Assembly (NCBI GenBank): GCA_021234155.1
Contig: JAJEKV010000222.1
Location: 124,001 to 188,000 of the forward strand
From: Isoetes taiwanensis
Lineage: Eukaryota > Streptophyta > Lycopodiopsida > Isoetales > Isoetaceae
Direction of reading: 5' to 3'
DNA: 64,000 nucleotides
Position 1 is the stretch's first letter. Each line of letters starts with the position of its first letter. This document shows positions 12,445 to 50,071 of the stretch, piece by piece. The notes under the pieces were generated by a model. The model was given only the letters and a program-made list of their open reading frames with translations, did not search any database and was not told the origin of the DNA. Position numbers and translations under genes: made by a program.

Positions 12445-13440
12445 TTGCTTGCAGGTAGATCAGGGTACTAGCGCCGCGGATCGCCCAAGAACCTCGAAGA
12501 AGTAGGGCAAAAAGAAGTTCCGGAAAAGCCGCGCCGCGGGTTCAAAATATTACAGGCGTCAAAAGATGGATGTCACGTCGCGCATGCGGCGTTATTTCAA
12601 ATCCGTATAAAATCGCATTATAAATACGGTCTTACGTCGCATGCACGCCCCCGTGACGTATTTTGTTATAGCGGCGTTATTTTTTTGCATCTTTTTTAAT
12701 GTGATGCTCATTAAAGTTTGTCCCTAGGCTTATTTGAACAGTCCCCGAGGCATGCATGCGATCAATCACATTCAGGATTCTATTACTACCAAATAAAAAT
12801 TGTATGGCGAAGTCGAATCGCTGTTCTCGGGACGGTCGCCCGAGACGCCCAGCGGTTTGGATGAGTTCTCCGGACCGATCTTGGATTTTTGGTCCTGTTC
12901 GAGCTGGATCCTTGAACGGAGGATTCAACGGTCGGATATATAGGGGAACTGAGCTTCGGGAGGGTGTTCATTAGCATACTGATCCCCAGTGGCGCCCGCG
13001 CCAGAGTGCCTCGAGAACGTTTTTGGGGTCCGTCTCTCACGGGGGGCCGGGACTCTCCCCCTCTTGAGGTGGCCATTCAAAGTCCTCGCCTTTGTTTGAC
13101 TTGGGGAAGGGTGCAGTCATGCTTGCCCAACAACGCTGCCCGGACCGTTCTAACCCCAACGCTTGGGTGCGGACCTTATCCAAAAATTTTGGAAATTTTC
13201 GTATCTTCGGTGATGACCATGGAAGCCAGCTGACCAAAAAACCATAATTTAATTCCATGCCATGCATTAACTACGAATTTATGAACCATAAATGCAATAA
13301 AATGCATAACTAAAAGAGTGTGCATCGAAAAAAGGCGAAGTCTTTGACCAGGGGGGCAACAAGGCGGTCGGACACATTAAAAAATTTCCACTTGAAAGCA
13401 ATCTTTCAACAAAGGTACAATTGTTTTAGAAACAAAACCA

Positions 13441-13723
13441 GTTCATTACAAGTTAGTTATGCCATCCATGTCAAATAGCTTTAGGGCTTGAGAAAAACCA
13501 AAACAAAAACCCTTCTAGAATCGGCAAGTCACCCGGGGTTTACGTTTGGGAGGCCCTCTCCTTGTCAGATTTGGTGGGACTTGCGCCGCGTGTCTTGACA
13601 TGGAGTGGGGGGTGTTGACGCTTGAGTCGGGACCCTAAACTCCCAGGAAGTTGCTTGCCCGAATTCAGTTCATTACAAGTTAATTATGCCATCCATGTCA
13701 AATAGCTTTGGGGAGCGAAATTG
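13441..13723. repeat. Local direct repeat inside the array
   Basis: TTCATTACAAGTTAGTTATG...CATGTCAAATAGCTTT occurs at about 13441 and again, with small changes, at about 13670, about 229 bp apart. Confidence 0.6.
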
Positions 13724-13836
13724 TTGAACAAGGGCATTCTCTCTATCCATATGCCTTGATCTTTGAAACACAACCATCATCACAAGCAACCAAATCTAAC
13801 CCCCAACCCGCCAAGACTAGTCTTTTGCTTTTACAG

Positions 13837-13920
13837 AATCATTTATCTTCATTCTAGTAGTTATGATGCTTTTCACGTAATCATTTATCTTCATTCTAAT
13901 AGTTATGATGCTTATATTCT
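13837..13920. repeat. 42-bp tandem duplication
   Basis: The unit AATCATTTATCTTCATTCTA... is present twice (13837, 13879) with one or two changes. Confidence 0.7.
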
Positions 13921-15799
13921 CAATGCAATCTTAGACCAAGTATAACGTCCAATGAGCCAAGGTCAACCCCAAGTACAACGATCCCACAAACTCCATTCCT
14001 TTGACCTTAGCTAACCCTTTGACCTAGACCTTCTCCTAAAAATTTCAAAATTGGGTGTCTTTGGAGATGGATTAGAATCAGGTGGTAAAAAATCAGAATT
14101 TATTTTTCGTACAATGCATTAATTTTAATTTATGAATGTCTTGCCACCGCAAAAGCCCCGACTTCTACTTGCCACATCGGAGGAGGACAGGCCCAAACTC
14201 GGCTCCGTCAGTTCCCTTGCTCCGTATTCTGGCTGCGGCTTAGGCTAGGTCCCAAGTGCAATGTAGACCAAGTCTCGGCCCCCAAAACATAAACCCTTCT
14301 AGAACACGGCAAACCCACTGGGGTTTATGTTTTGGAGGCCCCTCTCCTCGTCGGTTTACCTGCGGGACCTTGTGACTTGGCGTGGAGTGGGGGTGTTGGC
14401 GCCTTGAGCACCGGACCATAAAATCCCCGGGAAGCTGCTGCCCCGAATTTCCTCTCCCCAAGGCCCAGGGGACGGATGGGCGACCTCCCTCTCAGGAATC
14501 ACGATTTGGCTCGCCAATGGACTCGAAACGTCGACATTGCCACGGGACCAAGTTCGTGGCGGAAGACCACCCGACCTCAAGAAGCCAAAGTAGCTCACTT
14601 CCATCACACTCGTAGTCAATTGGCCTAAGATGTGGATGCGGGATACCTTCGTGGTGGGGCGTGAGTGTTTTTTCTTTTGCAAAACCGACCTTGTAACTTG
14701 CTCCTTAGGGTAATTTCGCCATTCGGACGATTTGGCGGGGGTCGATTTGCCATTCAGGGAACCTCCCGGTGCGAGCAACGACAAGACTGCTGCCCGGTTT
14801 CTACAAGGCCGACCTCGGGGGCCAGCGGTTTGACAAGTTCTCCCGACCGATTCGGAATCTTTTGGGGGCCTTCGAAGAGGGGCCCTGAACGGAGGATCCA
14901 ACGGTCGGATAGGGGAAAGACTCCGGGAGGGTGGTCATTAAGCGTCCCCCAGGGAGCGCCGAGGAAGGGCTGCCTCGGGAACTTTTTTGGATCCCGCCTC
15001 TTGGGGTCCGGACTCTCCCCTCTTGTGAGAGATCCCTGCAAGGTCCTGGCCTCGTTTGACTTGGGGAAGGGTGCCATCTCGGTTGCCCTGCAACGGGCTG
15101 CCCCGACCGTTCTAATGCTAACCCTTTGACCTAGACCTTCTCCGAAAATTTCGAAAATTGGGCTGTGTGCTGGAGATGGATCAGGAATCCAGCTGGCAAA
15201 AAATCAGAATTTATTTTCGTACAATGCATTAATTGTGAATTTATGAATGTCTTGCCCCTTGCAAAAGCCCCCGACTTCTACTTGCCACATCGGGGAGGAG
15301 GACAGGCCCAAACTCCGCCGTCGGTTCCCTTGCTCCAGTATTCTCGGCTGCAGCTTCTCGGCCAGGTCCCAAGTGCAACAGACCAAGTCTCGGTCCCCAA
15401 AACGCAAACCCTTCTAGAACCTGGCAACCCACAGGGTTTACGTTTTGGAGGCCCTCTCCTTGTCGGTCGAGGGGGACCTTGCGACTTGGCGTGGAGGAGC
15501 GGGTGTTGGCCTTGAGCACGGACCCTAAAATCCCGAAGGCTGCTTGCCCGAATTTCCTCTCCCCAAGGCCACGGGGACGGACGAGGCGACCTCCCCTCTC
15601 CGGGTGCGATTTGGCTCGCCAATGGACTCGAAGCGTCGACATTGCCACAGGGACCAAGTTCCGTGGCGAAGACCACCCGACCTCCAAGAAGCGCCAAAGT
15701 AGCTCACTTCCATCACACTCGTAGTCAATTGGCCTAAGATGTGGATGCGGGATACTGTCGTGGAGGGCGTGAGTGTTTCTTTCTTTTGCAAAACCGACC

Positions 15800-16787
15800 T
15801 GTATAGTGGCCCAATTGTAAGAATGTATATTTCTAACTTGAGATTTCTATGGTTATGTATAGGTATTGTATAAAAAAATCGTTGAAGTATTCAAAATAAA
15901 TAAATCCCCTGAAGGTAGCAAGCATTTGTGATTTGCGAGAAGTGTGGAGCATTGGCTCACATGTGTTGAGCATGATAAAGATACACAGTATGAATGGATA
16001 GATTTCCAGCTAGTGAAAGGGAAGAACATAATGAATGCAACTATAAAGAGTTGGAGTACGTTTTGAAGCAAATCAGCCTTTCAAACTAGCCAACCTGCAA
16101 CAATTAATGGTTTAGTACAAGTAGATGATTTTGAATTGCGTGTGTTGTTTAACTCTTCTTCAAACAGATCACATTGCATGAACATGTGCTCCAAAGTGTG
16201 GTGCGGCTCCTTAAACAAGACGTATAGGATATAATGGCATTTCTTTCCGTGGTTTGTAGTATTTTAGAAAAGCCTTGTAGCTAAGGTTATTGTTATATCA
16301 TAGAATATAAGAAGTAAATTGTTACTCCTAGGCAAGCAACGTGATTACGATTTCTTTGCCATATGTTTGATATCGCCAAGTTCTAAACAACCACATTGGC
16401 TTGAAGAAAATGCTAGAAACAAAAACATAGATTCATGATACAAGCCTTGGCAAAGAAAATGATTATGGGTCATTCATTAAGAAGGCAGTTTTACATAGCT
16501 GGGATTATTTTAAACACTTTATTTAAATCGGTGCCTTTAAATACAGTTATGATGGTTATGATATCAATCTTTTTAATTTGGGATTTTCCGGTTTGACTAA
16601 AAAAGTTTTTGGAATTTTTCTTAGCCCCATTTCCTATGATTTTGAAGGGTTTAGTGGCCGGGAAAAAATTCCGATATTCCAAAAATCGAAAAGAAATAAT
16701 TTGTGGTTTTAGAGTCATTGCTTTTTCGATTTAGGTCAAGTTTCTAGGTGGAAAATAATTTTCGAGATTAGGCTAAGATATTCTAAG
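15800..16787. other. No gene seen
   Basis: AT-rich and without a supported frame. Several short reverse-strand frames lack motifs. Confidence 0.5.
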
Positions 16788-27777: not shown

Positions 27778-27802
27778 AAAAAAAAAAAAAAAAAAAAAAA
27801 AA
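27778..27802 (+). repeat. Poly(A) tract
   Basis: A run of 25 A residues lies immediately before the direct repeat R2. Confidence 0.9.
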
Positions 27803-28062
27803 CCAACCATACAAGAAATCCATAACACCCATCACATATAATGCCATATTCTATTTAGTGGCTACCATATTGGTTCATGGTTTTAATCCATCCTTTGATA
27901 TATAAATACCTAGTTTGAATATGTTTTTAACTAATAATTTGTTTGATAATGTTTTTCCCAACAAGTTAACTTAATCAAATGCAAGCTGGATCCAAGCCTG
28001 AAATTGCCTAAGCCTCCTGTTGCGTCTTTTTTGCTAGTTTTTTTTTTTTTTTTTTTTTCCCC
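27803..28062. repeat. Direct repeat R2, left copy
   Basis: This 260-base unit starts CCAACCATACAAGAAATCC after a poly(A) tract and ends GCTAG-T(n)-CCCC. It matches 32579-32828 with only a handful of substitutions besides the T-run length. The distance between the copies is about 4.8 kb. Confidence 0.9.
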
Positions 28063-28585
28063 GATGATGTTCTTACTAAGACTACGGTCAGTTAAAGTAA
28101 AACAAGTTCACTTAAGTACACCTCATTCAGAGTAAGACCATTTTTCCCATATCTACCCTGATTTTGACATCAGGCCACATCAGGTACTCTTACTACCATT
28201 TTATGTGATATTTATTAATGGAGAATTTTTTCAAAGTATATATGGATCTTAAGAATGCAAATTTAATTTCATGCTTTATCGAGTAATGGATTTGGGTGTT
28301 TAACATAACAAAGTCAAAGGATATAAAATAGAGGTTGAATATTAGACATATTAATTCTCCAATTTCAGTAGATGTATTAGAATACTAGGCAGAGTAATTC
28401 TTTTAAATATATTACAAATCTGGAAACCATATTTAATCCAATAAGTTCAGTCACAATTTTCAAAAGGATCCTCATATGTTCTCTCAATTAAAATAAAAGA
28501 AAAGATGTTGTGCTCTGCTTGTTTATGCAACAACACTACTTATCCTTATCAGCCAGATCTTCCACTAAAAGATGAGTGATCTCAC
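28063..28585. other. No gene seen; likely intron
   Basis: AT-rich and probably intronic to the proposed minus-strand gene. Confidence 0.35.
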
Positions 28586-28689
28586 CCAATGCTGATACCA
28601 CCATAGTTATAGACCAAGTTCTGCCCCTGGTCCACGTTATGAACAGCACACCAACCGAAAATAACTTCAGGAGGGAGAGTTCTGGTTAC
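28586..28689 (-). CDS. Probable internal exon of an unidentified gene
   Basis: On the minus strand an acceptor (AAGTGCAG) is followed by 104 open bases reading VTRTLPPEVIFGWCAVHNVD and QGQNLVYNYGGISI, then a donor (ATTGG|GTGAGA). The exon joins in phase 0 to the proposed first exon at 29963-30121. Composition and both splice sites make this one of the more convincing exons in the area. I do not recognise the protein. Confidence 0.45.
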
Positions 28690-29962
28690 CTGCACTTAAA
28701 CAATGACAAAGTTAGCAATATATTGGTAACTAGCCAAGGGGCGTCAGGTAAGCAGTAGAACACTCCGGCTTATCGCCCTTCACCATATATTTTCAGCTGT
28801 ATTGGTCATGTTAACCCATAATCACAATAGGAATATATCAGGTTAAAACATGTTACAAAATTCAAAACAATCTATCATTAAGCATTCTGAGATTTGAGAG
28901 GTCACATCAGGCCCTACAAAATGTTTTTCATGGCTAAGGATCTCAATATCTATAGTGCATAGACAAAGCCAAACCGGATCTCAAAGGCCCTGTTTATCTT
29001 AGTTTCATAGTTTCTCTCGCCCAGTTAGCTACATAAGATTTCATCAACATTTCAGCCATGTATCAAATTAATGTTATTAATGAGATCAAAGTAAATTATA
29101 GATACTAGAGGTCAACAATCCGTTTCACAAGCATCATTATTGTATGAAGACTTATTCTTGAAATCCAGCATAATATGGCATCCTGTATCCACATATGTAA
29201 ACCTGGAGTATAAGGTCAGCAACACCATCTGTTCCTTTGGACTTATATAGCATTATGGAGGGCTTTTCTTGCCCATAATGCAGGCATCACATCATGGCGA
29301 TCAGCATATAATTTGCTGTTATAAAAAATCAGATCTTCAGCATATCAGAGGGACTCAGTGTTTTCCATAAACCATTAGTTAAATTCTACTTGGAAACTAC
29401 GGTCACTTCATGCTTCATCTATTGTTAAACAATGGGGCCATCATAAGTCTCCATACCGGATTGAGCTTAAAACCTAGACCAGGGTTCAACAGAGACGCCA
29501 CCAGGAGGTATACCTCTTCATTATACATCTTGTTATTTCCAGAATATTACCCTGAGTTCCAGCAAGCTTATGCTCTTGACTTAGCTAATGGATACCAGGG
29601 AACAGGAGCATACAATCCCTACCACTCTCATTCATTCCAACAAGTCGAATCATTTGTTTCTCATACAAAATGATTCTGGGGACACAACAACAAGCATCAT
29701 TTTCCAAGCAATAACTTAACATAAACTAATCCAAACGGCTGTTATCCCTATAAAACTTTAAATAATCAGCCCATATTAAGCTACGGGTGAGTAAGTGTGT
29801 ATGCTAAGTACAGGCAGATAATGTTTATTAGTGCACTGTAGACCAAAATCAGAGATATTTATGGAGGATCCGGACCAAAACCATGTATGGGCTTATGCCA
29901 TTTTAAGGTTAAACAGCAGCAAACCTTGTAGATCCGTAAACATAGAGCACAAGTTCGCAAAC
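28690..29962. other. Probable intron of the minus-strand gene
   Basis: This stretch lies between the two best exons, with a donor (CAG|GTTTGC on the minus strand) at its right edge and an acceptor at its left. A + strand frame at 29410-29673 is open but has no recognised motif. Confidence 0.35.
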
Positions 29963-30121
29963 CTGATTGGAGGTCCCGCGCCTTGCGTAGCTTGAAGCAG
30001 CTCCACCAGTTCCAGGTTTTCTGAAGAAGCTATTTTTATCCAGTTTTCTTGACGCACCACTGCTACTGCCAGCTCCCTTAGCTTTCTTTCCAGGAATTTT
30101 TTCGTAGGTACCTCTAGGCAT
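29963..30121 (-). CDS. Probable first exon of an unidentified gene
   Basis: ATG at 30121 (minus) opens exactly 53 codons: MPRGTYEKIPGKKAKGAGSS, then a basic serine/glycine-rich stretch (KNSFFRKPGTGGAASSYARR) ending TSNQ at a strong donor CAG|GTTTGC. The phase (0) matches the acceptor at 28689, giving TSNQ-VTRTLPPEV. A basic disordered N-terminus followed by a folded part is typical of nuclear proteins, but no family is recognised. Possible further exons lie at 24.7-25.5 kb. Confidence 0.4.
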
Positions 30122-30734
30122 GTCTACAATCCGCAGCTTGGAGCAGAAAAATCGAAGAGCCCTGAATGGCGCCCAGCAGATAGTAGATATCAGCCTTCTA
30201 AATGCCTTACCCGATGCCGCTCTTAGCGTCATTATAAAAAGGGAAATGTGTTTTCCTAAGCACCATAATCTTAAAGCCGCTCATCAATACAGGAGGCTCC
30301 CATTCATGGCTTTAGCATAAATTCAAGCTCCTCGAGAAGACCTAAAGCTGCAACCCACCATTAAGGAGCATTTTACCTAAGGATAATATAAATCTTAAAG
30401 TGTGTCATACATAATGTCAATTTTCCAAAAACGAGAAATGGGACACGATATTTTTGTTGCCCCTTTATGCCAAAAGATCACAAATTCCCTTGCTATTATT
30501 TTGTATCCATGGTATAAACATTGGATAAAAACAATATTCCATGCACACGTTTACAAATTTTTCAAAAAGACCAAAGGGGCAAAGGGTGTACATCTTCGGA
30601 TCTTAATCCAACCAATCATTGAGCACCCTACTCCCTCATCATCTTCTTTTTCTCCCACATCCCACCCTCGGGATGCAGGACCCATCACTTTAAAGGGGGC
30701 AGGACCCCCCTATAAAGGGAAAGGTCCTGCCACC
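30122..30734. other. Intergenic; small hairpin
   Basis: GGCAGGACC...GGTCCTGCC (about 30696-30730) folds with 9-bp perfect arms. It lies just downstream of the stop codon of the minus-strand reverse transcriptase ORF and may be part of its 3' end. No other signal is seen. Confidence 0.4.
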
Positions 30735-31865
30735 CTACTCAGAAGAAGACATCTGCCTTGATAAATTAGCTAAAATCTTTTTGACTTCATTAATATTATA
30801 GGCTAGTCCCGGAAACCTGTTACTGGAGATCAGCCTACTAATATTTTCCACCAAATCACTTTGATCAAAGCCATTATCCATAAATTCATGTATCAATTTA
30901 CACAGGTTTTCCCCTGCTGTTATAGGGCTAGTATTCACATAAAGAAAAGGTAGCACTTGAGACACAATAACCCTACTGGCATTCAAATAAGGGCGGCAGC
31001 TAGTAGCATGAACATATTTCATTACTTGGAATGGAAGTTTGTCCCTCTTGTCGTATTTGGATGTAATAAAATGCCCTGCAGCCGAGTCAATCACTTCAAT
31101 GGTAACATTCAGGAAGTTACCTTTAAATCCAATTCTCCCAAGGTTGTCCTCCTTAGGTCTATACTCGGTTTCATCTTTAATTTGCAGCAATTTCAAATTG
31201 TAGATGTTACAGCAGTCATTACAATCTTTGCCTTCCTGGAAGAACTTAGATAAATCCCCACCATTCGGTATACACAGATCATCTATGTATCTTCTGGCAT
31301 CCTTGAATCTAATAATATCTTGAAATCTGCCTCTGCTAGCAAGTCTTTCTATATGTTTCATTTCAAAGTATGAGAGGTAGAGATTGCACCATTCAGGAGA
31401 GCAGGCAAATCCCATAGGGATCCCACATGCTTGCCTCCAGACTCCATCTCCTTGAACCACATAGCAGTTATTCAACAAGCAGACATTCAGATTACAGAAC
31501 TCAATCTTGCTCAAGTATTGCCAAGACTTTCCACTTTGTCTTTTATTGTCCCATTTGTAAATAATATCATCATCTAAGATTCTAAAAGCCAGGAATACCT
31601 CCTTTCCATTCCCAGTCATGTAGTCCACAGCAATATTAATTATTTCAGTAATAACATTACAGATTCCATCTTCTCCTAGTAAGGGGATATTCTCGTAACA
31701 TTTGGAGATATCGGCTGTGAAAATATCAGAGATTTTATTGGGCAAGTCTAACATAAATTCGTAGACTGAAGTTACAATCCAATATGGATTAACATTCCCT
31801 GGTAGTAACCTATTAATTTTCTCGAGTCTCTTCTTATAGGCACGAGGAAGGGCTTTTTCTGTCAT
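30735..31865 (-). CDS. Penelope-like (PLE/telomerase-type) reverse transcriptase, open ORF
   Basis: This is an unbroken 376-residue frame. Reverse-transcriptase palm motifs are in order: A, TADISKCYENIPL (Asp52); B, ACGIPMGFACSPEWCNLYLS (about 146-165); C, RRYIDDLC with the Asp pair at 195-196; then GFKGNFLNVTIEV (246-258). A C-terminal PLE-style block follows (KYDKRDKLPFQVMKYVH, later LCKLIHEFMDNGF). A CY-E/D-IP motif A, a GIPMG motif B and an FL-(D/N)-(L/V)-TI box point to Penelope-like elements, which are related to telomerase, rather than to LINE or LTR enzymes. Only about 50 residues precede motif A, so the finger domain is short or lies in an upstream exon. No GIY-YIG endonuclease follows the stop. 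Motif C is YIDD instead of the common YVDD/YADD. The ORF is intact while almost everything nearby is broken. The first ATG may not be the true start because an acceptor-like CAG lies just inside it. Confidence 0.8.
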   Translation of the reverse strand: MTEKALPRAYKKRLEKINRLLPGNVNPYWIVTSVYEFMLDLPNKISDIFTADISKCYENIPLLGEDGICNVITEIINIAVDYMTGNGKEVFLAFRILDDDIIYKWDNKRQSGKSWQYLSKIEFCNLNVCLLNNCYVVQGDGVWRQACGIPMGFACSPEWCNLYLSYFEMKHIERLASRGRFQDIIRFKDARRYIDDLCIPNGGDLSKFFQEGKDCNDCCNIYNLKLLQIKDETEYRPKEDNLGRIGFKGNFLNVTIEVIDSAAGHFITSKYDKRDKLPFQVMKYVHATSCRPYLNASRVIVSQVLPFLYVNTSPITAGENLCKLIHEFMDNGFDQSDLVENISRLISSNRFPGLAYNINEVKKILANLSRQMSSSE

Positions 31866-32121
31866 ACATGCAGGTACAATTACCAGAGCTTATTTTTGGT
31901 GTCTGTATAAGAGAAATTGATCTACGTGCCAGCACATGGCATTTCACATTCATCAAGGGACTGATGAAACCCACTTTCCTGCATGCATAATTGAGAAAGA
32001 TGTGGAACATGTGTGACAGTATAAAAGTTAATGCATTTTGAAGGTTTCATGTATAACAATGTAAAATCAGACATAATTTGAAAGCTACCACGTAACAGTT
32101 TCAAGGCAAACAAGATGGCAA
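31866..32121 (-). other. Upstream of the PLE ORF; short open frame
   Basis: A minus-strand frame (32113-31922, containing LKLLRGSFQIMSDFTLLYMK) lies upstream of the reverse transcriptase and could hold part of its missing N-terminus, but nothing in it matches RT finger motifs. Otherwise nothing is seen. Confidence 0.25.
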
Positions 32122-32550
32122 GTGATCTCGGAAATTTTATATGAAATTAGTCTTTTGTTATTTAATAGTACACTGGATTGCAAATCTATTCTCCTAGCAT
32201 CCTACCCAGGTGCATGGGCCCTAGATAAACGGAAGGCCTTTCATCTCGGGTCTAGTTGGTTACTGTGGTCAATTTGGGAGCGTCGTAGGCTGTACATTCT
32301 CCAAGGCATTTATCCACTTGTTCCTAGAGTCATTGCTGTAGCCCAGGCTAAGATATTGATGGCTTGGGACTCTTCCTCCCTCAAGAAAGAAGTGAGAGAT
32401 CAGTATCATTAGTTCTCCTATGCTAGAGTGAGTACGTAATGCTTCAAGCTCGTGCTTCGGGAGCGTTGTCTTGTGCTTGCACAGCAAGATGAGTTTTGTA
32501 CATCTTGTAGTGTTTACCTGTGATTAATAAACTTGCTTTTTGTCCTTCGC

Positions 32551-32576
<26 letters not shown>
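32122..32576 (+). mobile_element. LINE 3' fragment with poly(A)
   Basis: The frame to TAG 32410 holds the C-terminal LINE signature GSSWLLWSIWERRRLYILQG. It is followed by about 140 bases of untranslated sequence with AATAAA, then 26 A residues (32551-32576). It is the last ~0.4 kb of an L1-type element on the + strand, strongly 5' truncated. The sequence after the poly(A) is the start of R2 and is not duplicated before the fragment. A normal target-site duplication was therefore not found. The 5' edge is approximate. Confidence 0.75.
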
Positions 32577-32578
<2 letters not shown>

Positions 32579-32581
<3 letters not shown>

Positions 32582-32828
32582 ACCATACAAGAAATCCATA
32601 ACACCCATCACATATAATACCATATTCTATTCAGTGGCTACCATATTGGTTCATGGTTTTAATCCATCCTTTGATATATAAATACCTAGTTTGAATATGT
32701 TTTTAACTAATAATTTGTTTGATAATGTTTTTCATAACAAGTTAACTTAATCAAATGCAAGCTGGATCCAAGCCTGAAATTGCCTAAGCCTCCTGTTGCG
32801 TCTTTTTTTGCTAGTTTTTTTTTTCCCC
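32579..32828. repeat. Direct repeat R2, right copy
   Basis: Near-identical to 27803-28062. It starts two to three bases after a poly(A) tract and ends GCTAG-T(n)-CCCC. Confidence 0.9.
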
Positions 32829-33404: not shown

Positions 33405-35183
33405 ATGGCTACTAATGCATGCGAGATTGGAGAAAAGCCTTGCAATCCAACAGAAGGATCTGACCCGCCCCCTAATAGTTCAGCCCAAATTATTCCCCCA
33501 GTTCCTGAACCCGATCAGAAGACCAATTCTGATCCTCAACCCGATCAGCTGGTCGATTCTGATCCTGCTGCATCAATGGGGCAGATCGTTTCCCCAGTTC
33601 CTGAACCCGATCAGCTGGCCAATTCTGATCCTCAACCGGATCAGCTGCCCAATTCTGATCCTGCAACATCAATGGCACAGATTGTTCCCCCACTCCCTGA
33701 ACCCGTTCAACTGACCAGCTCGGATCCTGCATCAACGCCACAGATCGTCCCTGACTGCCTTCCCGATTCTGAGGCAGAACCGCCGGCCGAAGCTGACCCA
33801 GAACCTGGTGAAAATTCCACCCCTTAAATTTTACATTATGCATCTAAAATGTACTAAAAGATCATACCTAAAACGTCTTTTGAAATGGGATTTGTGTTGA
33901 ATAAGCTACTTGCATATGCACTGACTAATGTTTTCTACCACAGACAATGACATTGGAGAAGATAATATATCATTAGATGCGTCTGAGCAGGCCGAATCAG
34001 AATCAGAATCAGGTAAAATTCCACCCCTTAAATTTCTATTTGTTGCTCCATATGAATCTAAAATGTTCCCACATGTCTATAAGGTTAGATTCCATAACTT
34101 ATCGGACTCTCTAGTGTAAAGGGAGAGTCCGATAATTAAGTTATCACTCCTAGGAGTGATAATAGTTATCAGTACTTAATTAGTTTTCAGCCAGTACTAG
34201 GAGATAATTAGTTTTCAGCCCGATAAGGTGGTTATCGGTCTTTGCCTTGGCTGATAACAAAAAATGCGTGGCCTCGGTTGTACGTCCTCGGCCAGATATT
34301 TGCACGTAAGGCCTCGATCGGCCTTCGGCCTTTGCGGGCCTCGGCCTTATGTGCAAATATCTGGCCTCGGACGTACAGCTTCGGTCGCGCATTTTTGGTT
34401 ATCAGCCTCGTTAGACCGATAACCTTACCTTAAAAGGTTAGACCGATAACCTTACCTTAAAAGTCTGTTAAAAAAGAATTTGTGTTGTTTGAGTTATAGT
34501 TGTTTGCATAGACTCACTGATAATGTTTAACTTACAACAGATAACGACAATGGAGGAGAAGGTAGTACAACATCAGATGAGCTTGAGGGATGTACAATGG
34601 ACTTGGTCCCTGTAGCAATAAAAAAATGTGTAGAGAACATTGCAAAGCGATCTGGTAAGAGCCCCCCACAAAAAAAAAGATGGGCAGGATAGCCAAGATT
34701 GTTACCAAGGCTGCAATACATATTATATGTAGGCTTGTGAGAGCAGGTTGTTGTGCTTGCTGTGGTTGTGGTCGTTGTGGTTCTAAATCTGAGGAGGTGG
34801 ATTGTTGTCAGATCGCCACCGCGGTGGTGGTCTCCATTAACGAGGTATCAACAGCCATCATTGCGGCAGACGCTCTCTCTAAGAAAGAAGCCTCGCCCAC
34901 ATCCATAGAGAAAGATCCCGTCTTTGCTGCAAAATTGTCATCTTCGATGGCCCTTCGGTTCGGGATCTCTCTGAAAGAAACCTCGTCCACACCCATACAA
35001 AAACTCCTTACCTTTGCAAAATTGCCATCCTCTAATGGTCCTTCTGCTGCAGAATCAACAGCCTTCCTGCTGCATAATCATCAGCCCAGGAGAAGGTCGC
35101 GATTTCAAAAATCACAATCAATAGCCCCAGTTGTAGTTGCAGCTTCCATCACAGAATCAATAGCCCAAGAAGATTCCACCTGA
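33405..35183 (+). CDS. Four-exon lineage-specific repeat protein, function unknown
   Basis: Exons 33405-33807, 33944-34012, 34541-34654 and 34747-35183 join in phase 1 throughout and total 1023 bases (340 residues). Donors are G|GTGAAA, G|GTAAAA and G|GTAAGA. Acceptors are CCACAG, CAACAG and GAGCAG. Exon 1 encodes Pro/Asp-rich repeats of the type VPEPDQL-NSDPQPDQL--SDPA. Exons 2 and 3 are acidic and both start with Asp-Asn-Asp. Exon 4 has a Cys cluster (GCCACCGCGRCGSKSEEVDC) and two similar blocks (KKEASPTSIEKDPVFAAKLS and KETSSTPIQKLLTFAKLPSS). The two first introns start with the same 20-odd bases, so an exon-intron unit was duplicated. No domain is recognised. Intron 2 contains a nested hairpin element. 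The last junction (92-bp intron) is the least certain: an unspliced read stops soon after 34654. Confidence 0.55.
34096..34142. repeat. Hairpin in intron 2
   Basis: AACTTATCGGACTCTC pairs with GAGAGTCCGATAATTAAGTT across a short loop. Confidence 0.7.
34141..34162. repeat. Perfect 22-bp palindrome
   Basis: The sequence centred on CACTCCTAGGAGTG and extended by TTAT/ATAA on each side is a perfect palindrome, directly next to the hairpin at 34096-34142. Confidence 0.85.
34225..34431. mobile_element. Fold-back/MITE-like element in intron 2
   Basis: This is an imperfect inverted repeat with arms of about 95 bp. GGTTATCGGTC and GGCTGATAAC on the left face GGTTATCAGCC and GACCGATAACC on the right. 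The inner arms share AAAAATGCG, TGTACGTCC and GGCCAGATATTTGCAC. The centre is a GC-rich GGCCTTCGGCC-type loop. An extra tandem copy of GGTTAGACCGATAACCTTAC follows at about 34434-34460. It is typical of a miniature inverted-repeat or fold-back transposon. Confidence 0.7.
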
Positions 35184-48764: not shown

Positions 48765-50071
48765 ATGGAGGACCACAGAGGTCCTGGGCTGATCTTGTCA
48801 GTGGCAATTCTTTTTGCCTGCGCACTAGCCGGTCCGGTTCGCGCAGATTACTATACTTATAAGTCTCCTCCTCCTCCTCCTTATCTATACAAATCCCCTC
48901 CACCACCTTCTCCATCTCCTCCTCCTCCATATGTTTATAAGTCTCCTCCTCCTCCTCCTTACATTTACAAGTCTCCACCTCCTCCTCCATATGTTTATAA
49001 GTCTCCTCCTCCCCCTCCTTACCTTTACACGTCTCCACCTCCTCCTTCCCCATCTCCCCCACCTCCATATCACTACAAATCTCCTCCCCCGCCATCGCCC
49101 TCGCCTCCGCCTCCCATACCGCTACAAGTCTCCTCCCCACCATCCCCCTCGCCCCCTCCCCATACCACTACAAGTCTCCTCCCCTCCATCACCCTCGCCT
49201 CCTCCTCCTTATCTATACAAGTCTCCTCCTCCACCTTCTCCACCTCCCCCCTATCACTATAAATCTCCACCTCCCCATCTCCATCTCCCCCCACCACCAT
49301 TATATCATTACAAGTCCCCTCCATTGCCACTACCTCCGCCTCCATACGTGTACAAGTCTCCACCATCACCTTCACCTCCACCTCCGTACCATTATAATTC
49401 CCCACCTCCGCCATCACCCTCACCCCCCCCCCCATACCATTACAAGTCCCCACCTCCACCGTCACCTTCACCTCCTCCTCCATATCTCTACAAGTCTCCA
49501 CCACCGCCCTCACCCTCACCTCCACCCCCATACCATTACAAATCTCCCCCGCCATCACCCTCTCCTCCGCCGTATGTATACAAATCCCCACCTCCCCATC
49601 TCAATCTCCTCCCCCTCCTTATCTTTACAAGTCTCCACCACCACCTCCAATGTACCACTATAAGTCCCCACCAACTCTATCATCTCCTCCACCATACATC
49701 TACAAGTCTCCTCCCCACCATCACCTTCACCTCCTCCTCCTTATCACTACAAGTCTCCACCACCTCCTTCTCCATCTCCACCTCCTCCATACTACTATAA
49801 GTCACCTCCTCCACCATCTCCTTCTCCTCCTCCCCCATATCACTACAAGTCCCCATCTCCTCCCTCTCCATCCCCACCTCCTCCATACCACTATACATCA
49901 CCTCCTCCACCATCCCCTTCTCCTCCTCCACCATACCATTACAAGTCTCCCCCTCCACCATCTCCATCTCCTCCACCACCATACTTCTACAAGTCTCCTC
50001 CACCACCACTTAAATCACCACCTCCGCCATACTACTACAAATCCCCCCCTCCACCTTCACACTATTACTAA
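48765..50071 (+). CDS. Extensin (hydroxyproline-rich cell-wall glycoprotein)
   Basis: ATG 48765 opens a signal peptide (MEDHRGPGLILSVAILFACA, then LAGPVRA), followed at once by YYTYKSPPPPPYLYKSPPPP and many more YxYKSPPPPSPSPPPP units. This is the classical extensin layout: Ser-Pro3-5 blocks to be hydroxylated and arabinosylated, and YxY motifs for cross-linking in the primary wall. The frame breaks near 49115, in 49130-49200, at about 49600 and at about 49710. Reading through these shifts restores YKSPPPP repeats up to SPPPPSHYY and TAA 50069-50071. The broken points are C-runs one or two bases shorter than the repeat predicts. Either the assembly has homopolymer errors or the gene is newly broken. 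The minus-strand frames here are shadows of the repeats. Confidence 0.9.

Follow-up and report, generated by a model that had tools for sequence, protein, structure and literature searches.

A 5'-truncated Penelope-like element of Isoetes taiwanensis and its relatives at GAA and T tracts

Results

The window, by which we mean the whole 64,000-nucleotide stretch of Isoetes taiwanensis DNA analyzed here, carries on its minus strand the C-terminal 376 codons of ORF2, a Penelope-like reverse transcriptase (RT), belonging to a 5'-truncated element (30735..31865). An open-reading-frame check found the 376 codons free of stops on that strand, and the plus strand of the same interval is stop-rich in the frame shown. 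The minus-strand translation contains TADISKCYENIP, ACGIPMGFACSP, RRYIDD and FLNVTI in the order in which the earlier note had quoted them, with motifs A, B, C and D kept, in an order like that of Penelope-like elements (PLEs). The frame is not a chance one, since it shares 86% amino-acid identity with a copy on another contig (C908) and has 109 scored matches genome-wide. The earlier note had called the RT intact, which it is not: the frame aligns to residues 329-701 of a 701-residue relative in locus L011 (86% identical), and the copy therefore lacks about 328 N-terminal residues, fingers included. Its match to Pfam RVT_1 (23.4 bits, E 5.6e-5) falls short of the curated cut-off of 29.6 bits, no GIY-YIG domain follows the frame, and an AlphaFold prediction of the window protein alone was set aside (mean pLDDT 38.4).

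Downstream of the frame on the minus strand lies the 3' end of the element body (30645..30734), a conserved region of two hairpins that ends in GAGGGTGGGATGTGGGAG. In 11 other copies (GAA)n comes next, but in the window copy it is eroded. The hairpins comprise 28 predicted pairs, four of which show a double change, with a weak covariation term of only -0.8. A right pseudo-LTR (pLTR; 28053..30443, minus strand) follows, recognized by homology blocks at 30443-29687, 28864-28540 and 28375-28053, and its sequence is that of the 5' region in fuller elements. The order of RT fragment, 3' end and pLTR is the layout of those fuller elements, and the pLTR terminates at the pLTR-ORF1 junction point, at the same place as the short units described below. 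On its other side the element stops at the truncation point, a 5' truncation such as is a feature of Penelope-like copies, and the sequence beyond it (31866..32551) matches neither body nor pLTR and lies outside the element. The window ORF represents the tail half of a broken member of an abundant Penelope-like family, and this copy looks dead.

Several other repeats were noted in the window. The truncated element lies between the two copies of a 273-bp repeat (27778-28047 and 32552-32824), which share 97.4% identity and the same orientation; the pair was considered as a target-site duplication, and its upstream copy lies off the element boundary. When the first copy was used as a query the second was the best non-self match at 98%, the next being at 89%. 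GC-rich repeats with an offset of about 1.1 kb (13000-15800) match a block at L011 1-2940, at 79-84% in the longer pieces, which adjoins the closest RT copy. A 96-bp tandem repeat (33493-33728) lies within a 140-codon frame with PVPEPDQ-like repeats, and a C-rich tandem array of about 48-bp units (48870-50060) reads by eye on the plus strand as PPPPY-YKSP-like, extensin-like repeats.

Searching the genome (1,658,258,908 bases in 1110 contigs) gave 3436 first-look candidates and, out of these, 109 scored matches to the window protein, the window included, which makes the window copy one of many; 80 of the matches have no stop inside them. They fall into clade 1 (78 matches, at least 54% identical to the window protein) and clade 2 (31 matches, at most 47% identical), and the full-length matches have open frames of mostly about 690-730 codons. 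An ORF1 query returned 86 scored matches, itself included. The window frame is thus not a lone retained gene but a member of an abundant family. Relatives of ORF2 were absent from viral contigs and prokaryote genomes, as were relatives of ORF1 from viral contigs.

The suggestion that the window copy had been retained under selection is not supported. Against L011 the window frame has a dS of 1.04 and a dN of 0.077 (ratio 0.074), most comparisons with other copies being saturated at synonymous sites. At codons with the same state in two outgroups, 9 synonymous and 8 nonsynonymous changes fell on the window branch, and 19 and 0 on the sister branch leading to L011 (Fisher p 0.0008): the family is under strong constraint and the window copy is relaxed. 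In simulations the frame stayed open in 38% of cases with 20 random changes and in 2% with 90, so that its openness is unsurprising in a truncated copy of fairly recent origin. A domesticated RT gene maintained by selection would account for a frame open over 376 codons, but this explanation is close to untenable, contradicted as it already is by a copy that is truncated, multicopy and under relaxed constraint on its own branch.

The fuller relatives are about 7 kb long and consist of a pLTR of about 2.3-3 kb, ORF1, an intron, ORF2 with the RT, the conserved 3' end and another pLTR. Both clades show ORF1 (about 500 aa) together with ORF2 (about 690 residues). Introns kept in genomic copies are a Penelope-like feature, and here they were recognized by splice signals in genomic sequence only: several copies share an acceptor TAG and a branch-like CTAAC or CTAAT in the ORF1-ORF2 intron, and a donor-like GTA stands at, or just past, the ORF1 stop. 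Read by eye, an ATG directly follows the ORF1 stop in L011 and overlaps it in L013 and L014, and no ATG is found there in L009, L012 and L015. ORF1 had no Pfam match above chance and no PHROG match, and a profile search against the PDB gave a single weak match (E 0.42); the same search with ORF2 gave none. The library matches of ORF2 were generic (RVT_1 below its cut-off, a phage RT family at E 2.6e-4), and the best of them, the CRISPR-associated RT model P0005 (E 5.1e-6), is uninformative on PLEs.

The pLTRs and partial tandem copies typical of Penelope-like elements are displayed by a 34.5-kb stretch of contig C923, in which three short units, each no more than a 5' region, come after three full elements; all are arranged head to tail and separated by (GAA)n. 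Two of the full units share 98.0% identity. Their 5' regions are matched by one short unit at 98.5-98.7% identity, and the 5' region of the third element by another at 94.0%. The point at which the short units stop corresponds, in intact elements, to an internal GAAGAAGAA (E1, E2) or GAAGAA (E3), a site which in E1-E3 sits just upstream of ORF1. In clade 2 the 5' region is likewise repeated after the RT in L013 (98.2%) and L014 (93.9%). This pLTR-body-pLTR layout, judged from sequence, is that of PLEs.

A sense (GAA)>=12 tract starts at most 8 bases from the 3' end in all 11 of the other clade 1 copies read (L002-L012, mostly the best-scoring ones and not a random sample), and no (GAA)n follows the 3' end of the window copy. 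On the 5' side, where 1.6-kb flank windows were positioned by their distance from ORF1 regardless of content, 20/20 sampled clade 1 flanks contained a sense (GAA)>=5 run, the exact 5' boundary not being fixed in each, and runs in the TTC orientation numbered 0; region-unmatched controls (the window and ten loci) held 0 such (GAA)>=5 runs in 130,526 bases. To the left of the tested run a pLTR end was found in 9/20 flanks and a body 3' end in 1/20, and the remaining 10/20 had no element sequence within 220 bases; second GAA runs at the window edge of L038 and L044 fell outside this left-side test. One flank (L048) had a GAA run after a body end and another after a pLTR end, and the sequence read on C923 and C1072 contains no element ORF1 or RT before the first tract.

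Clade 2 is associated with a different tract. In L013, L014, L015 and L055 its internal site consists of CTGGG and then T8. Among the 12 right-end regions read (L013, L015, L050-L059), nine (L013, L015, L050-L054, L057, L059) show T12-T25 and then differing DNA, two have T tracts (T36 in L056, T21 in L058) and lack a clear pLTR-end match, and L055 shows the internal site only. Both left ends (2/2) follow a T tract, of T23 and T27. The internal GAAGAA of clade 1 and the internal T8 of clade 2 stand at the same place, and each clade thus carries there a short copy of its own target tract. The fuller relatives are embedded in simple-sequence DNA, for example GAAGAAGAA or T runs, a location that is unusual and testable. 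Unequal recombination between GAA tracts, rather than retrotransposition, might have produced the short units and arrays, as there is a tract at every junction of the C923 array, but clade 2 copies on different contigs, with differing DNA past the T tract, share the same internal end point, which makes this origin very improbable.

Searches for an endonuclease, run with an E limit of 5 on three ORF1 proteins and two ORF2 proteins, gave no GIY-YIG match, and a profile comparison of the ORF1 and ORF2 alignments with the GIY-YIG proteins of the host returned nothing. Neither the C-terminal GIY-YIG of canonical EN(+) PLEs nor an N-terminal one was found in this family, the 5' exons being incompletely modelled. 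At least 121 GIY-YIG matches are listed for the genome, a lower bound from which a stretch in L049 is missing, and the nearest of those listed lies 73.8 kb from any of the 109 RT matches. That GIY-YIG-like stretch (L049 186-326; 56.7% identity over 60 residues, E 3.5e-15) lies in 1/20 flanks, that of a clade 1 copy whose GAA tract is about 0.76 kb further downstream. The multicopy GIY-YIG genes behind the at least 121 matches were also considered as part of the element and rejected, with no RT frame in the three loci read (L022, L023, L024; about 4.0-4.5 kb). They possibly represent a different transposon; in L024 a PIF1-like helicase lies upstream of the GIY-YIG gene.

These data bear on whether the family could be a PLE of the N-terminal-endonuclease (Chlamys/Naiad) type, with a GIY-YIG too diverged for Pfam or encoded in an unmodelled 5' exon, and with the tract cleaved by the element and not broken beforehand. 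Such PLEs were reportedly described by Craig and colleagues in 2021 as having a CxC linker, a bias to microsatellites and a presence in spike mosses. The CxC ahead of the RT is invariant in ORF2 (C99 and C101 in 10/10 aligned sequences), and the 5' exons are modelled only in part. The empty protein searches and profile comparison, together with the 73.8 kb to the nearest GIY-YIG match listed, speak against this assignment, which we regard as unlikely although worth keeping in mind.

Discussion

The anatomy of the family, with its pLTRs, introns, 5' truncation and lack of a Pfam GIY-YIG match, supports the view that a plant Penelope-like RT with no GIY-YIG following it is present. Membership of the PLE clade is judged from motifs and anatomy. 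By their motifs, the four RVT_1 loci that were read look like Ty3-type elements. Compared with the host telomerase RT, the ORF2 profile aligned at motif B only, weakly (probability 4.3%); the host gene itself is in L020, and its RNA-binding domain has a further partial match at G000:C1062:4065477. No hammerhead ribozyme was found at gathering threshold in 17 sources; hammerheads are usual in canonical PLEs. The family might be a separate, deep-branching class of retroelements, sister to PLEs plus telomerase and merely resembling the former, as suggested by two ORFs with no known domain in ORF1, no hammerhead found, the lack of a PDB match for ORF2, generic RT matches elsewhere and RVT_1 below cut-off. 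The PLE-like order of motifs, the introns kept in genomic copies, the pLTR-body-pLTR anatomy and the copy ends at the pLTR-ORF junction all weigh against this placement and render it improbable.

In our judgement the window probably holds a dead, 5'-truncated copy from a Penelope-like Isoetes family with two ORFs and an intron, whose fuller members lie in tracts in a fixed orientation and would prime inside their RNA. The anatomy, the tracts at the sampled ends, the orientation and the end points at the internal tract are observed, and we infer the priming, the absence of an endonuclease and the use of breaks. An RT-RNA complex would bind the pLTR-ORF1 junction of the transcript, where the 3' end of the complementary strand of the target tract, (TTC)n or (A)n, would pair with the internal GAAGAA or U8 and so prime reverse transcription inside the RNA. 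Copying would then proceed back through the pLTR, ORF2, ORF1 and the left pLTR, after which the other end of the copy would be joined at the tract. GAA tracts are fragile, and as no endonuclease domain was found the likeliest entry point would be free ends at breaks in such tracts. According to PMC11167929, the animal PLE PAc begins reverse transcription within its RNA, close to the pLTR-ORF junction, and the start site has no homology to the cut DNA; the homology between start site and target tract seen here is unlike that animal PLE and is a point against the mechanism. EN-deficient PLEs are apparently able to prime from exposed 3' ends, according to excerpts of PMC3846280. It is possible, and we put it forward tentatively, that this is an endonuclease-less plant PLE lineage homing to fragile interstitial tracts via internal GAAGAA/U8 pairing, an interstitial counterpart of telomere-primed elements with switchable targets.

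These observations bear on target choice and the start of reverse transcription in PLEs, of which one full-length protein has, by its authors' account in PMC11167929, been obtained pure and active. Within a single genome, the two sister clades have different target tracts and carry the matching tract at each internal start point, and target choice could therefore be tested by swapping a few template bases. If true, this mode of insertion would link telomere-style priming to interstitial insertion.

The word "Penelope" is absent from the main text of the I. taiwanensis genome paper (PMC8566536) and from the I. sinensis genome paper (PMC10541799), and titles and abstract openings among the PLE literature matches listed, a scope with few subscription papers, contain no description of the Isoetes family. 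EN(-) PLEs in Selaginella and conifers are already in print (PMC9033089, PMC12477314, both in part), and conifer Penelope elements are reported as expressed in an excerpt of PMC10473749. The Dryad elements of conifers are of the EN(+) Penelope/Poseidon type in the relevant passage of PMC9033089; Dryad, compared by description only, and the Isoetes family are both plant PLEs. Canonical Penelope/Poseidon PLEs (e.g., PAc of Anolis, part of PMC11167929) share with the Isoetes family the tandem pLTR-ORF-pLTR, copy ends near the junction and a PLE-like RT motif order, whereas the Isoetes family has no C-terminal GIY-YIG or hammerhead that we found, and has a separate ORF1 and a start site homologous to the target tract. 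The Chlamys/Naiad PLEs resemble it in the CxC ahead of the RT, the microsatellite targets and the green-lineage host, and differ from it in their N-terminal GIY-YIG, none being detected here, and in the separate ORF1 of the Isoetes family. EN(-) PLEs of Selaginella, conifers, bdelloids and fungi were reportedly described by Gladyshev and Arkhipova in 2007. Such elements are also treated in PMC12477314, PMC9033089 and PMC3846280, and with them the Isoetes family has in common that no endonuclease was found, a lycophyte host and a proposed priming from a repeat-bearing 3' end. No tandem telomeric repeat, the association typical of Athena/Coprina, occurred in 62 sequences (299,305 bases), a sample of loci rather than of chromosome ends. 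Unlike the EN(-) PLEs, the Isoetes copies are located at interstitial GAA or T tracts, many of them far inside multi-Mb contigs.
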